From Agreia pratensis (lineage in GTDB: Bacteria; Actinomycetota; Actinomycetes; Actinomycetales; Microbacteriaceae): a DNA stretch of 64,000 bases. Below, piece after piece: positions 1 to 53,965 of this stretch. The stretch lies in the NCBI RefSeq assembly GCF_900177685.1, contig NZ_FXAY01000001.1, forward strand, positions 620,001 through 684,000. The letters are read 5' to 3'. The notes beneath the pieces were generated by a model, which did not search any database, had not been told where the DNA came from, and saw nothing but the letters and a program-made list of their open reading frames with translations. Position numbers and translations under genes: made by a program. How positions within the stretch are numbered: position 1 is the first letter of the stretch; each line of letters begins with the position of its first letter.

Positions 1-336
1 GTGCGCCACCGACGGCGACGACACGAACACGAGACGGCCGGCTCCGGCGTCATGCATCGCAGCGAGGAGAGTGCGGGTTCCCTCGACGTTGACGGCCTCG
101 AACTCGGCCGGGTCGCCCGCCAACGAGACCTTCGCGGCCAGGTGCACCACGGCATCCACGCCCTGGGCGGCGCGCGCGACGTCGGCCCGCGACGTCAGCG
201 AGCCGAGAGCGTCGTCCACCCCGACGACACCGGATGGCCGCCGCTGGAAGGTGCGCACCTCGTGCCCGGCCCGCACGATCTCGCGGGCGACGGCTCCTCC
301 GAGAAAGCCGCTGGCTCCTGTGACGAGAACCTTCAC
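1..336 (-). CDS. oleD: OleD, beta-keto acid reductase / NAD(P)-dependent epimerase family (partial, C-terminus off the window)
   Basis: Only the first 112 codons are present; the gene runs off the left edge. The GTG start at 336 overlaps the TGA of oleBC in a GTGA 4-base overlap, so translation is probably coupled. The N-terminus reads VKVLVTGASGFLGG, a classic Rossmann GxxGxxG (G7, G10, G13), followed by VHLAAKV and LVFVSSPSV typical of extended short-chain dehydrogenases. In known ole clusters OleD reduces the 2-alkyl-3-ketoacid made by OleA to the hydroxy acid using NADPH. Position in an oleA-oleBC-oleD order supports this rather than a sugar epimerase. The catalytic YxxxK lies outside the window. 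Confidence 0.88.
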   Translation of the reverse strand, partial: MKVLVTGASGFLGGAVAREIVRAGHEVRTFQRRPSGVVGVDDALGSLTSRADVARAAQGVDAVVHLAAKVSLAGDPAEFEAVNVEGTRTLLAAMHDAGAGRLVFVSSPSVAH

Positions 337-3101
337 GGCGCGCTCAGCTTCTCGCCGGAGAGCACGCCCTCGGCCCAACGCGACAGGGCGGATCGGTCGA
401 TCTTCGAGTTGTGTCGGATGTCGGTGGGCAGCGCGGGAACCACCAGCACCGCCGCGATGTCGAGCCCTGCCGCGTGGCGCACAGCAGCACCCAGGTCGGA
501 GTCGGCGAGTGCGGCACGATGCGCGGGCGGGTCGGTCTCGAGCACCACCACGAGCTGCTGTGTTCCCCGAGGGCCGATGCCCGCGAGCGCGACCCTCCCG
601 ACACCCAGCACCGACTCGATCTTCTGCTCCGGTCCGACGGGGGTGACGACTCCCCCGGCCGTGACGACGACATGCGGAAGTCGGCCCTCGACCCAGAGGC
701 GGCCCTGAGCGTCGAGGTGCCCGACATCTCCGGTGCGGTGCCAGCGTTCGGTCGGCGTTCCGTCGGAATCTGCCCACACGGAGTCGGCGTCGGCAATGCG
801 GTTCGTGGCCCAGAGCCGGTCGTATGACTGCTTCAAGTGGGGAGCGGAGAGCACGATCTCACCGGTGACGCCGGTCCGATCGCTCGGTTCGGCAGTCGGC
901 TGGCCGTGCTCATCGAGCCCCGCTATGCGCACGCGCACCGATCCGGCCGGCGCTCCCACGCACACGCCGCCGGCGTGCTCGCCTGCGGGCAACGCAGCAG
1001 CATCCTGGGCTGCGGCGCGAATGCCCTCGAGCGTGACGTCGGTCATGAGCAGACCCTCGGTCATGCCGTAAGGGGTGTGCGGAGTGGCGTTCGGCATCAG
1101 CCGACCCGCCGCGGCGAGAAGAGTCTCGGGCACGGGAGCGCCGGCCGAGAGAAAAGTCTTCACGCCCGCGAGCGCCGCGGTGTCGGCGGCGCCGAGGGCA
1201 TCCGCTGTGGCGACCACGTTCGCGAGGGCGGCCGGCGAGAGGAACACGACCGTCGCATCCACCGCCGCCGCGGCCTCGGCCGTGGCCTTCGCGGTGAGGG
1301 TGCGCGGCGAGGTGACGTTCATGTCGGGGGTCACCGACCGCGCGCCGAGGGCGGGGCCGAGCAGCGCGAAAGGGGCGAATCCGGCGACGAGGCCCGTGCC
1401 GACCCCGATGTCGTATTGCGACGAGAGCGCGTCGCGAACAGCCTCGAGCTGGGCGTGCGTGTAGATGACGCCCTTGGCCGGTCCGGTCGATCCCGAGGTG
1501 AAGAGAACGGCGGCGACAGCGGATGCCGCGGGCGGCTCGGGCAGCGACTCGTCGGCGCCCAGCCGCGCGAGTTCGGGCAGGGAGTGCCGTACGCCGAGCG
1601 CGAGGGCGGTGGCACGCGGAAGGGTGGTGGTCGAGATCTTCTGTCCGGGCCACGAGAAAGCGCGGGCGACCGAGAGGCCAGGGAGGGCGCCGATCACATG
1701 GTCGGGGCGCGCGCCGCGCACGGCGCGGGTCAGACCGGGCAGTCCGAGGCCGGCATCGGCGACGACGACGATTGCGCCGATGCGCAGGCACGCGTAGAGC
1801 ACCGCGGTGAGGTCGGCGCTCGGCGGAACGAGAAGGGAGACGCGGTCGCCGGGCTTCACCCCGGCGCGCACGAGGCCCGCGGCGAGCTGGCGCACACGGG
1901 TGGAGAGGAGCTTCCATGAGACGTCTCGCCGCGGCTTCATGTCGACCAGCGCGATGTCGGTGCTGTCGCGCCGCTCGTCGAGCACGCTCCACAGCGGACC
2001 CTTGCGCTGGTCGAGTAGGCCGCCCGCGGCCGTATCGAGACCGTCGGACGTGGTCTCGATACGCCGGCTTGTTCCTCGCGCGGCTACTCGACCGGCGCGC
2101 TGGTCGAGACCACCCAGCCAGTCGAGCACCACGGGCGCGTACTCCACGTCTTCGGCGATCATGTGCCCCGCGCCCTCGAACCTGTGGATGTCGGCCTGCG
2201 GCATCCGTTCGGCGAGATCGTCGAGATACGTGTCGGAGAAGATCGGGTCTCGGGGTCCCCAGAGCATGAGCGAGGGAACGCCCAGTTCGCGCACCCCGGC
2301 GGCGATGCGCTCGAGTTCGTTCCACGAACGGTGCCGCTCGTCGACGGGGATGTCGGCCACGAACGCGCCGATGCCACCGCGCCGATCGGCCGAGCGATAG
2401 GGCGAGCGGTACCCGTTCTTGACGTCTGATTCGAGAGACGGATGCGCGAGCGCCAGCGTCGTCTCGAGGAATGCCGGCGTCGCCACGGTGGCGCGCCCCA
2501 GCATGCCGCGCTGCAGGGTGAGCCGCAGCGGCCACGGAATGGCGCGGTCCTCCGGCTGGTGGATCGCCGTGTTGAGCAGCACAACACCGGCGAGCTCATC
2601 GGGGTGATCGACCGCCCAGCCCATCGAGACGACGCCGCCCCAATCGTGGCCGACGGTGACCACGGGGCCTGCGAGTCCGAGGGTCTCTGTGAGAGCGGAG
2701 AGGTCGGCGATCCGATGTTCTAGACCGCGCTCGATGCCGGTGCGCTCTGAGAATCCCATCTCCAACTGGTCGACGGCGATGACCCGCCACACGTCGCCGG
2801 AGCCGGTCTCGGCCGCCGTGGTGGCGGCATCCGTCGCAGCAGCCACGAGCTCGCGCCAGAGATACGACCACGTGGGATTGCCGTGCACGCACAGCATCGT
2901 TCCCACGGGGGTCACCCCGAGCTGGTCGAGCACGGGCCCGTTGTCGAGCAGATGCCAGGTGACCGGATGACCGGAGTCGCCGTCGGCGGCCTCGACGAGA
3001 CGCGAGAATCGCGCATCCATGCCCGGCAGACCTGCCGGGGGAAGCGACGCGGGTGCGGTGCGACCCGCCGACCGGGGCAGGCGGGAGGAGCCGTGACTCA
3101 C
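333..3101 (-). CDS. oleBC: OleBC fusion: beta-lactone decarboxylase + beta-lactone synthetase
   Basis: 922 residues from a GTG at 3101 that overlaps the oleA stop (GTGA). Residues about 28-330 are an alpha/beta hydrolase of haloalkane-dehalogenase type: HGNP at 73-76, nucleophile Asp153 in GHDWGG, catalytic His313 in GAGHM. This is OleB, which decarboxylates the beta-lactone to a cis-olefin. Residues about 375-922 are an ANL adenylate-forming domain: P-loop LFTSGSTGPAKG at 533-544, PYGMTEG at 677-683, the GD of HRTGD at 791-792, C-terminal Lys900. This is OleC, which closes the beta-lactone. OleB-OleC fusions are known from actinobacteria such as Micrococcus. The inter-domain linker (residues about 331-366) is encoded by an intergenic-type palindromic repeat, described separately. 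A single longer open frame upstream to 4163 is only an overlap with oleA in another frame. Confidence 0.92.
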   Translation of the reverse strand: MSHGSSRLPRSAGRTAPASLPPAGLPGMDARFSRLVEAADGDSGHPVTWHLLDNGPVLDQLGVTPVGTMLCVHGNPTWSYLWRELVAAATDAATTAAETGSGDVWRVIAVDQLEMGFSERTGIERGLEHRIADLSALTETLGLAGPVVTVGHDWGGVVSMGWAVDHPDELAGVVLLNTAIHQPEDRAIPWPLRLTLQRGMLGRATVATPAFLETTLALAHPSLESDVKNGYRSPYRSADRRGGIGAFVADIPVDERHRSWNELERIAAGVRELGVPSLMLWGPRDPIFSDTYLDDLAERMPQADIHRFEGAGHMIAEDVEYAPVVLDWLGGLDQRAGRVAARGTSRRIETTSDGLDTAAGGLLDQRKGPLWSVLDERRDSTDIALVDMKPRRDVSWKLLSTRVRQLAAGLVRAGVKPGDRVSLLVPPSADLTAVLYACLRIGAIVVVADAGLGLPGLTRAVRGARPDHVIGALPGLSVARAFSWPGQKISTTTLPRATALALGVRHSLPELARLGADESLPEPPAASAVAAVLFTSGSTGPAKGVIYTHAQLEAVRDALSSQYDIGVGTGLVAGFAPFALLGPALGARSVTPDMNVTSPRTLTAKATAEAAAAVDATVVFLSPAALANVVATADALGAADTAALAGVKTFLSAGAPVPETLLAAAGRLMPNATPHTPYGMTEGLLMTDVTLEGIRAAAQDAAALPAGEHAGGVCVGAPAGSVRVRIAGLDEHGQPTAEPSDRTGVTGEIVLSAPHLKQSYDRLWATNRIADADSVWADSDGTPTERWHRTGDVGHLDAQGRLWVEGRLPHVVVTAGGVVTPVGPEQKIESVLGVGRVALAGIGPRGTQQLVVVLETDPPAHRAALADSDLGAAVRHAAGLDIAAVLVVPALPTDIRHNSKIDRSALSRWAEGVLSGEKLSAP
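2004..2111. repeat. Palindromic repeat family 1, copy A, inside oleBC
   Basis: The half-element CTGGTCGAGTAG...GTATCGAGACC (2007-2042) is followed by an inverted half, GGTCTCGATACG...CTACTCGACC (2052-2093), and a further CTGGTCGAGACC end at 2100-2111. The same building blocks occur at 5671-5764, 25990-26074, 51125-51218 and 53879-53965, all of them intergenic. Here the element is read through in an open frame as about 36 residues (GLDQRAGRVA... to ...LLDQR) joining the OleB and OleC domains. The TAG triplets in the element are out of frame, so the fusion stays open. Confidence 0.9.
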
Positions 3102-5670: not shown

Positions 5671-5764
5671 CGCTGGTCGAGTAGCGAGGAACGAGCGTAT
5701 CGAGACCCTCGCGAGTGATCTCGATACGCGCTGCTCCTTCGTCGCGAGCGCTACTCGATCAGCG
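5671..5764. repeat. Palindromic repeat family 1, copy B
   Basis: Two inverted halves: CGCTGGTCGAGTAG to GTATCGAGACC (5671-5707) and GATCTCGATACG to CTACTCGATCAGCG (5717-5764). It fills the space between convergent genes (HxlR ends 5655, exporter ends 5773), a position consistent with a bidirectional terminator or a mobile palindromic element. Confidence 0.9.
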
Positions 5765-25953: not shown

Positions 25954-25989
25954 CTGTTCAACCTACCCGCGCTTCAGACAGAAGAGTCC

Positions 25990-26074
25990 CGCTGGATGAG
26001 TAGCGAGGAACGAACGTATCGAGACCCGACGAGGGGCCTCGATACGGCCGCGGCCGGCCTACTCGACCAGCGGG
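25990..26074. repeat. Palindromic repeat family 1, copy C
   Basis: Inverted halves CGCTGGATGAGTAGCGAGG to GTATCGAGACC (25990-26026) and GGCCTCGATACG to CTACTCGACCAGCG (26035-26072). Lies between the ABC exporter start and the end of the sugar permease, and so may end the permease transcript. Confidence 0.9.
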
Positions 26075-26088
26075 ACCAGTGCTCGTCA

Positions 26089-32497: not shown

Positions 32498-32561
32498 CCC
32501 CTTCGACAAGCTCAGGGAACGGTTTGGTGTTACCTGCGCACAACGCTCAGGGAACGGTTTG
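32498..32561. repeat. Repeat family 3, two adjacent pieces between rplJ and rplL
   Basis: CCCTTCGACAAGCTCAGGGA (from about 32499) continues into ACGGTTTG, and CGCTCAGGGAACGGTTTG is repeated at 32544-32561. The 18-base shared tail makes a direct repeat in the rplJ-rplL spacer. Short GC-biased pieces of this kind recur in intergenic DNA of this window. Confidence 0.75.
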
Positions 32562-48322: not shown

Positions 48323-48395
48323 CAGGGCGGACAGGACTCGAACCTGCAACCTGCGGTTTTGGAGACCGCTGCTCTACCAATTGAGCCACCACCCT
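48323..48395 (-). tRNA. trnW: tRNA-Trp (anticodon CCA)
   Basis: 73 bases. Acceptor AGGGTGG pairs with CCGCCCT (one T-G pair) and discriminator G; D arm GCTC/GAGC; anticodon stem GCGGT/ACCGC with loop CTCCAAA, so anticodon CCA; T arm GCAGG/CCTGT with loop TTCGAGT. No encoded CCA. Directly upstream is the hairpin GGGCTTTTCAGCCC (48397-48411). Standing before secE is its usual place. Confidence 0.98.
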
Positions 48396-51124: not shown

Positions 51125-51218
51125 GGTCTCGATACGGCCGCAGGCGGCCTACTCGACCAACGCAGGTTGTGCGCCGGTCGAGTAGCCGCGCGACGAAGGA
51201 GCCGGCGTATCGAGACCA
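51125..51218. repeat. Palindromic repeat family 1, copy D
   Basis: Inverted halves GGTCTCGATACG to CTACTCGACC (51125-51159) and GCCGGTCGAGTAG to GTATCGAGACC (51172-51218). Lies between the HAD gene and the minus-strand gene remnant, i.e. at convergent ends. Confidence 0.9.
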
Positions 51219-53878: not shown

Positions 53879-53965
53879 GCTGGTCTCGATACGCTCGTAC
53901 CTCGCTACTCGACCAGCGCAGAACCGCGCTGGTCGAGTAGGTCGCTCAGCGACCGTATCGAGACC
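53879..53965. repeat. Palindromic repeat family 1, copy E
   Basis: GCTGGTCTCGATACG to CTACTCGACCAGCGC (53879-53919) and GCGCTGGTCGAGTAG to GTATCGAGACC (53926-53965). The right end supplies the C of the DoxX stop triplet. Between convergent genes. Confidence 0.92.

Follow-up and report, generated by a model that had tools for sequence, protein, structure and literature searches.

Palindromic elements read in frame within protein genes have previously been known from Rickettsia and from REP-rich Gram-negative bacteria, and REP units paired in opposite orientation are known as BIMEs or REPINs. The Rickettsia palindromic elements (RPE) are described in PMC10969869 as dispersed palindromes of about 150 bp that lie in frame in unrelated protein genes, with several families per genome and nearly half of the copies in genes. 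GTAG REPs carry GTAG next to a GC-rich hairpin, form opposed dimers and are mostly intergenic, with some intragenic copies (Di Nocera et al. 2013, PMC3733652); the discussion of intragenic REPs in that paper already suggests that such inserts are perhaps neutral in flexible linkers or loops.

The locus compared here with these systems lies in a 64-kb stretch of the Agreia pratensis genome, which we call the window. The gene at 333-3101 on the minus strand encodes 922 amino acids in a single frame, the GTG at 3101 being taken as the start codon. We take its product to be a fused OleB (alpha/beta hydrolase) and OleC (AMP-binding), names that rest on the preliminary description, on context and on recall; the Pfam domains are Abhydrolase_1 (residues 68-316) and AMP-binding (380-760). 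The DNA at 2009-2093 is made up of a pair of opposed units of a palindromic repeat, family A, and is read in frame as residues 337-365. Unit 1 (2009-2042, plus strand) has an inner hairpin of the GCCGCCCGCGGCC type and codes residues 354-365; a 9-base spacer (2043-2051) codes residues 351-353; and unit 2 (2052-2093, minus strand), with a long inner hairpin, codes residues 337-350. The preliminary description had drawn the element as 108 bases, 2004-2111. The repeat proper is confined to 2009-2093 and its extended arms reach 2004-2098, whereas 2099-2111 is a short extra half-unit on the plus strand with GGTCGAGACC at 2102-2111, a sequence found three times in the window against 0.47 expected. 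This half-unit, which lies within the segment (2094-2111) that codes residues 331-336, is possibly the scar of a family A unit without its inner part.

Folded as single-stranded DNA, the whole composite of 95 bases (2004-2098) forms one strong hairpin (-38.3 kcal/mol, z -5.6, none of 200 shuffles equally stable), and the two single units fold weakly (z -1.5 and -0.6). The AlphaFold model of OleBC (41 sequences, mean pLDDT 84.8) shows the family A element occupying a joint that is predicted to be disordered: residues 340-365 have pLDDT below 50 between two folded domains, the flanking blocks reach 93-94, and the five further low-pLDDT segments are each 4-6 residues long.

A family A unit comprises GGTCGAGTAG, a variable GC-rich hairpin and GTATCGAGACC, and strict units are 27-45 bases long. 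The pattern GGTCGAGTAG-N5..30-GTATCGAGACC has seven matches in the window against 0.00 expected (100 shuffles), and counting across the entire 3.58 Mb genome gave 87 strict units (N5..35) against 0 for the reversed-pattern control. With the pattern slightly relaxed, matches appear in 63 of 199 sampled genomes of the family, spread over 36 of 85 genera, with a maximum of 621 copies; reversed controls for the relaxed pattern are 0 in the genomes displayed from that survey. Family A is a true dispersed repeat. Identity with a known RNA family was rejected, the sole above-threshold match in the window being a tRNA at 48323-48395.

The loci examined in the A. pratensis genome contain 145 relaxed units and 63 dimers, and two opposed units with a short spacer are the usual form. 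The following counts of unit and dimer types are biased, the loci having mostly been picked around GGTC/GACC units: GCCGCCCGCGGCC is the commonest inner hairpin type (27 of 137 units), the commonest spacers of opposed dimers oriented as in oleBC are 9 or 10 bases, and 55 dimers include 28 of type GGTC+GATC, 13 GGTC+GGTC and 1 GATC+GATC. The scarcity of GATC+GATC dimers may reflect sampling, because the loci were chosen around GGTC units. Of the 50 units whose ends are not the searched GGTC/GACC, 35 nonetheless end in complementary sequences (GATC/GATC in 32), and 2 of the 50 are mixed GATC/GACC. The ends covary, so a unit behaves like a structure whose ends pair. The preliminary description had stressed that the oleBC copy is read without a stop although the element usually contains TAG. 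The frame is stop-free, and TAG is present out of frame, but this is not remarkable: 2-4 of the six frames are open in every one of the 63 dimers, and the open oleBC frame therefore needs no special adaptation.

As the preliminary description had seen, the inverted halves of the linker recur in four intergenic elements of the window. These are family A dimers at 5675-5760, whose first unit is also a strict match, at 25992-26068, whose first unit is degenerate, and at 51125-51217 and 53882-53965, both recovered by the strict pattern and the dimer scan. A codon-model scan places none of the four in a coding frame; the copy at 51125 has an open frame, but its coding scores are negative.

Like the RPE, to go by their description, family A is a dispersed palindrome read in frame inside protein genes, and the likeness drawn in the preliminary description holds for oleBC in that the linker DNA is a copy of such a repeat. 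Unlike the RPE, with the length and genic share given in PMC10969869, family A is short (strict units of 27-45 bases) and rarely genic, with 4 of 73 strict clusters placed inside genes, and in sister species a different family is found in the same joint. With the GTAG REPs, as set out in PMC3733652, family A shares GTAG beside a GC-rich stem-loop, opposed dimers and some intragenic copies. The inner hairpins directly follow GTAG, with the weak single-unit folds given above. GTAG is not an unpaired unit terminus, however: each of the 87 strict units has GGTCGA ahead of it, as the search pattern requires, and the conserved ends extend beyond GTAG and covary. Family A is not filed here as a GTAG REP, because its GTAG is internal, framed by GGTCGA/TCGAGACC, and because no RAYT (Y1 transposase, PF01797) was found in the eight genus genomes by a search that was positive in 5 of 14 control genomes. 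The absence of a RAYT weakens rather than excludes membership, since CGTC REPs, too, are described as having no transposase of their own (PMC3733652); a word search finds no "Actinobact" in the main text of that paper.

Opposed units with a short spacer recall BIMEs and REPINs, from which family A differs in that a Y1 transposase partner was not found in its own genome. As to MITEs, each unit ends in inverted repeats; the compared Agreia sites yielded no cleanly empty site with a target duplication, and the search for a parent IS covered PF01797. Spread driven by a RAYT is ruled against by the lack of Y1_Tnp in the eight genus genomes. Literature searches yielded nothing on palindromes of Microbacteriaceae at the level of titles and abstract openings of the papers listed, and four Rathayibacter and Agromyces papers among them contain the words "palindromic repeats"; the exact family motif strings, and palindromic intergenic repeats of Cryobacterium, were likewise not found.

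The OleB and OleC parts of A. pratensis are 82-96% and 80-93% identical, respectively, to those of six congeners; the linker is 7-51% identical. With the A. pratensis genome as G000 and the other genus genomes as G001 to G007, the linkers of G001-G004 carry another palindrome, family B, as dimers or trimers, that of G005 is a mosaic of half a B unit plus A units, that of G006 has a worn A copy, and that of the distant G007 contains neither family. Among the genus genomes and the other linkers examined, family A occupies the oleBC joint only in G000, in G005 and, worn, in G006. Family B is dispersed too, with 14 to 497 sites in G000-G006; its counts at up to three mismatches in G000-G007 are 66, 123, 64, 497, 282, 74, 14 and 2 (reversed controls 0-5 per genome), and those of family A are 87, 2, 10, 25, 25, 86, 0 and 0 (reversed controls 0). 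By these counts the A-rich genomes, G000 and G005, carry mainly A in the joint, and the B-rich, A-poor genomes carry B. There are exceptions: G002 has A in one of the three joints compared, that of a GNAT-permease gene, although B outnumbers A in its genome (64 vs 10), and G006 retains worn A copies although its genome has no strict A unit.

The four strict clusters placed inside genes are those of oleBC, a GNAT acetyltransferase-ABC permease fusion, nadB and a flavin monooxygenase. Placement combined the codon-model scan with reading of translations, and elements overlapping gene ends were left out of the count; nadB and the monooxygenase were picked from the translations, nadB missing the score cut of the scan. 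Three of the four inserts lie between two recognised Pfam domains. The GNAT-permease composite (L229:4665-4749, G000:C10:608665-608749) is nearly the same as that of oleBC, is read in the same frame and lies between Acetyltransf_1 (32-147) and BPD_transp_1 (300-501). The insert of NadB, an L-aspartate oxidase by its best PDB matches, lies between FAD_binding_2 (6-376) and Succ_DH_flav_C (442-522). In the monooxygenase the insert (residues 212-224) is ahead of an FAD domain that starts at 247 and is preceded by a region without any Pfam match. A further family A dimer, at L184:1977-2069, would code the tail of a frame that by eye resembles an esterase.

The in-gene count of family B covers the examined loci only. 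One copy is ahead of the radical-SAM/CofH part (Pfam CofH_C) of a presumably FbiC-like protein. Another unit, L174:643-661, falls within domain I of a phosphoglucomutase, a short way ahead of the conserved TPSHNP stretch; as the one in-domain case, it indicates that joints are not the sole tolerated place. A B-like stretch (up to three mismatches) in a gene of G006 that we take to be TetR-like was regarded as a chance match.

The comparison with relatives covers three of the four family A genes: oleBC, GNAT-permease and nadB. The GNAT-permease fusion is present in seven of the eight genus genomes, G007 having only a 42% permease match, and its joint holds A in G000, G002 and G005, worn in G006, and B in G001, G003 and G004. 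In nadB, G000 and G005 have A at the joint, G006 retains a worn half of A, and G001-G004 have B. The reading frame of family B in oleBC differs from that in nadB (RSLSLSKG vs PFPEPVEG), so no single peptide is kept. NadB also has, near residue 165, about 25 extra residues (...HPLP...) in five of seven Agreia genomes (L221-L225), absent from G000 and G006. On a tree built from the three genes without their linkers, with the G005 mosaic coded as A and one branch (85/87) not firmly supported, the fewest changes at oleBC, GNAT-permease and nadB are 3+2+3, or 2+1+2 without the distant G006. At least five exchanges between A and B are thus needed across the three joints. These joints show exchange of families between related species, and the oleBC linker is a recurrent landing place for repeats.

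Exchange is seen between genes as well. Four intergenic A sites have recognisable flanks in at least two of G001-G004; two hold family B there and two hold neither family. (In this site comparison 17 of 28 clusters are lone halves of 10-11 bases, which were taken as chance and not used.) A and B are swapped at at least two intergenic sites, 26016-26068, where G001-G004 have B, and -753 to -640 relative to the window. At the former, the dimer within 25980-26080 sits between the hairpin arms GTCCCGCTGGT...ACCAGCGGGAC, and this hairpin is bare in G006, which hints at an insertion into the loop of a hairpin, perhaps a terminator. A family B palindrome at 32499-32517 lies directly upstream of the ribosome-binding site of a gene that we assume to be rplL-like; it is nearly letter-identical in six of seven Agreia genomes, was not found in G002, and may have a regulatory role.

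We consider it very probable that the oleBC linker is a dispersed, non-autonomous, REP-like dimer that settled in a pre-existing disordered linker, and that this linker, like the GNAT-permease and NadB joints, has been colonised repeatedly. Linkers might instead have been swapped between species or loci by homologous recombination or gene conversion, with few true insertions. This is unlikely in our judgement. In its favour, oleBC and the GNAT-permease gene, whose elements are separated by 13.3 kb, carry almost the same composite, read in one frame and with spacers that are alike (6 of 9 bases), and the domains that flank the oleBC linker are conserved. Against it, the tracts of A and B are dissimilar at each of the three joints and at two sites between genes, and the G005 mosaic looks more like stepwise insertion and loss.

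Repeats other than A and B occupy the same joints in other genera. Three Cryobacterium oleBC linkers (L075, L081, L082) contain family C, TGGTCGAGCCTGTCGAGACC, which has 61, 215 and 95 copies in the respective genomes (reversed controls 0-1); the linkers L080 and L088 have weak family C matches and come from genomes with only 8 and 1 copies. Linkers L070 and L093 contain perfect palindromes whose arms are 19 and 23 bases long; these form family D, and the two genomes have 26 and 74 half-sites of it. The linker of a Naasia (L139) has a palindrome with 18-base arms and five half-sites in its genome. Clear copies are present in one of eight nadB joints from outside Agreia, a set that excludes G008 (not matched by the motif) and G019 (distant homologue only): four tandem family C copies in L260, from the Cryobacterium cryoconiti genome reached through L093, where the inter-domain joint of NadB codes a TGSTTGGPV repeat. 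Different repeats have thus invaded these joints independently, though the majority of oleBC linkers from other genera are free of repeats among the 88 linkers compared, a number that counts four genomes twice (L061, L062, L063 and L069 equal G001, G003, G004 and G007 in scores and lengths).

These linkers also bear on whether the element has been kept for a function in the mRNA or DNA of oleBC, as a hairpin slowing translation between the domains or as a binding site. The strong hairpin of the composite, and the fact that the other families at this joint are palindromes too, would suit such a role. We nevertheless hold it to be quite improbable: a marked palindrome (p<=0.05) is found in 15 of the 88 linkers, three of them from duplicate genomes and about four expected by chance, so that most linkers of other genera are without one, and the G006 copy has decayed.

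That the palindrome bridged two separate genes and thereby created the OleB-OleC fusion, as the preliminary description proposed for an element that does span the joint between the domains, is almost certainly wrong, as OleB and OleC share one frame in 8 of 8 genus genomes and in all 80 named relatives retained (the best 80 of 577 confirmed stretches), among them Cryobacterium, Mycetocola, Frigoribacterium, Curtobacterium, Sanguibacter and Microbacterium, and the fusion is reported from certain Actinobacteria, typically Micrococcales, in the account given in PMC7064751. As every one of these genomes carries the fusion, in most cases with an unrelated linker, the fusion is older than the repeat. 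The outcome named beforehand as telling against an origin from the repeat, namely linker residues shared by every fusion, did not occur among the OleBC relatives compared. The milder claim, that the repeat lengthened the fusion, is weak: the A. pratensis linker has 39 residues, and the Ala/Pro-rich linkers of relatives (77 outside the seven of Agreia) have 17-75, with a median of 33. That family A replaced an earlier linker fits better.

The preferred reading, settlement of a dispersed dimer in an existing linker, can be put as a sequence of steps. A palindromic dimer, copied by some host or transposase activity, would settle in frame in the disordered linker of an enzyme that was already fused. 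The linker would accept any insert that contains no stop and is divisible by three in length, and by this tolerance would be colonised repeatedly. At one and the same position, elements of different families would arrive, wear down and be succeeded by others, so that element turnover rewrites the linker and both domains stay conserved. Inserts elsewhere in genes may be lost by selection, leaving a preference for joints.

A short-loop scan of the loci examined gave CCCT ends in 57 of 76 Agreia matches and GGTC ends in 5 of 7 Cryobacterium matches (controls 0-2 per set). This is suggestive of a skeleton common to families A, B and C, which we advance as a hypothesis, since the fold of a single A unit differs from the bulge model. 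It is conceivable, though we lean against it, that A, B and C form a superfamily (N4-GA...TC-GA-N4', with compensated ends) copied preferentially into palindromes or hairpin loops, and that linkers are rewritten chiefly by exchange of selfish DNA rather than by point mutation. If so, one family would replace another at fixed sites, a few of which lie in the protein joints of enzymes such as OleBC and NadB.

The replacement of actinobacterial families by one another at the same protein joints is something we have not seen described in the literature searched, and it extends in-frame palindromic elements to Actinobacteria. It amounts to a natural experiment on inter-domain linkers, in which the same two enzymes are joined by unrelated, repeat-supplied peptides in sister species. 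With replacement repeated at the same joints, the entry, decay and exchange of intragenic repeats become countable across species.
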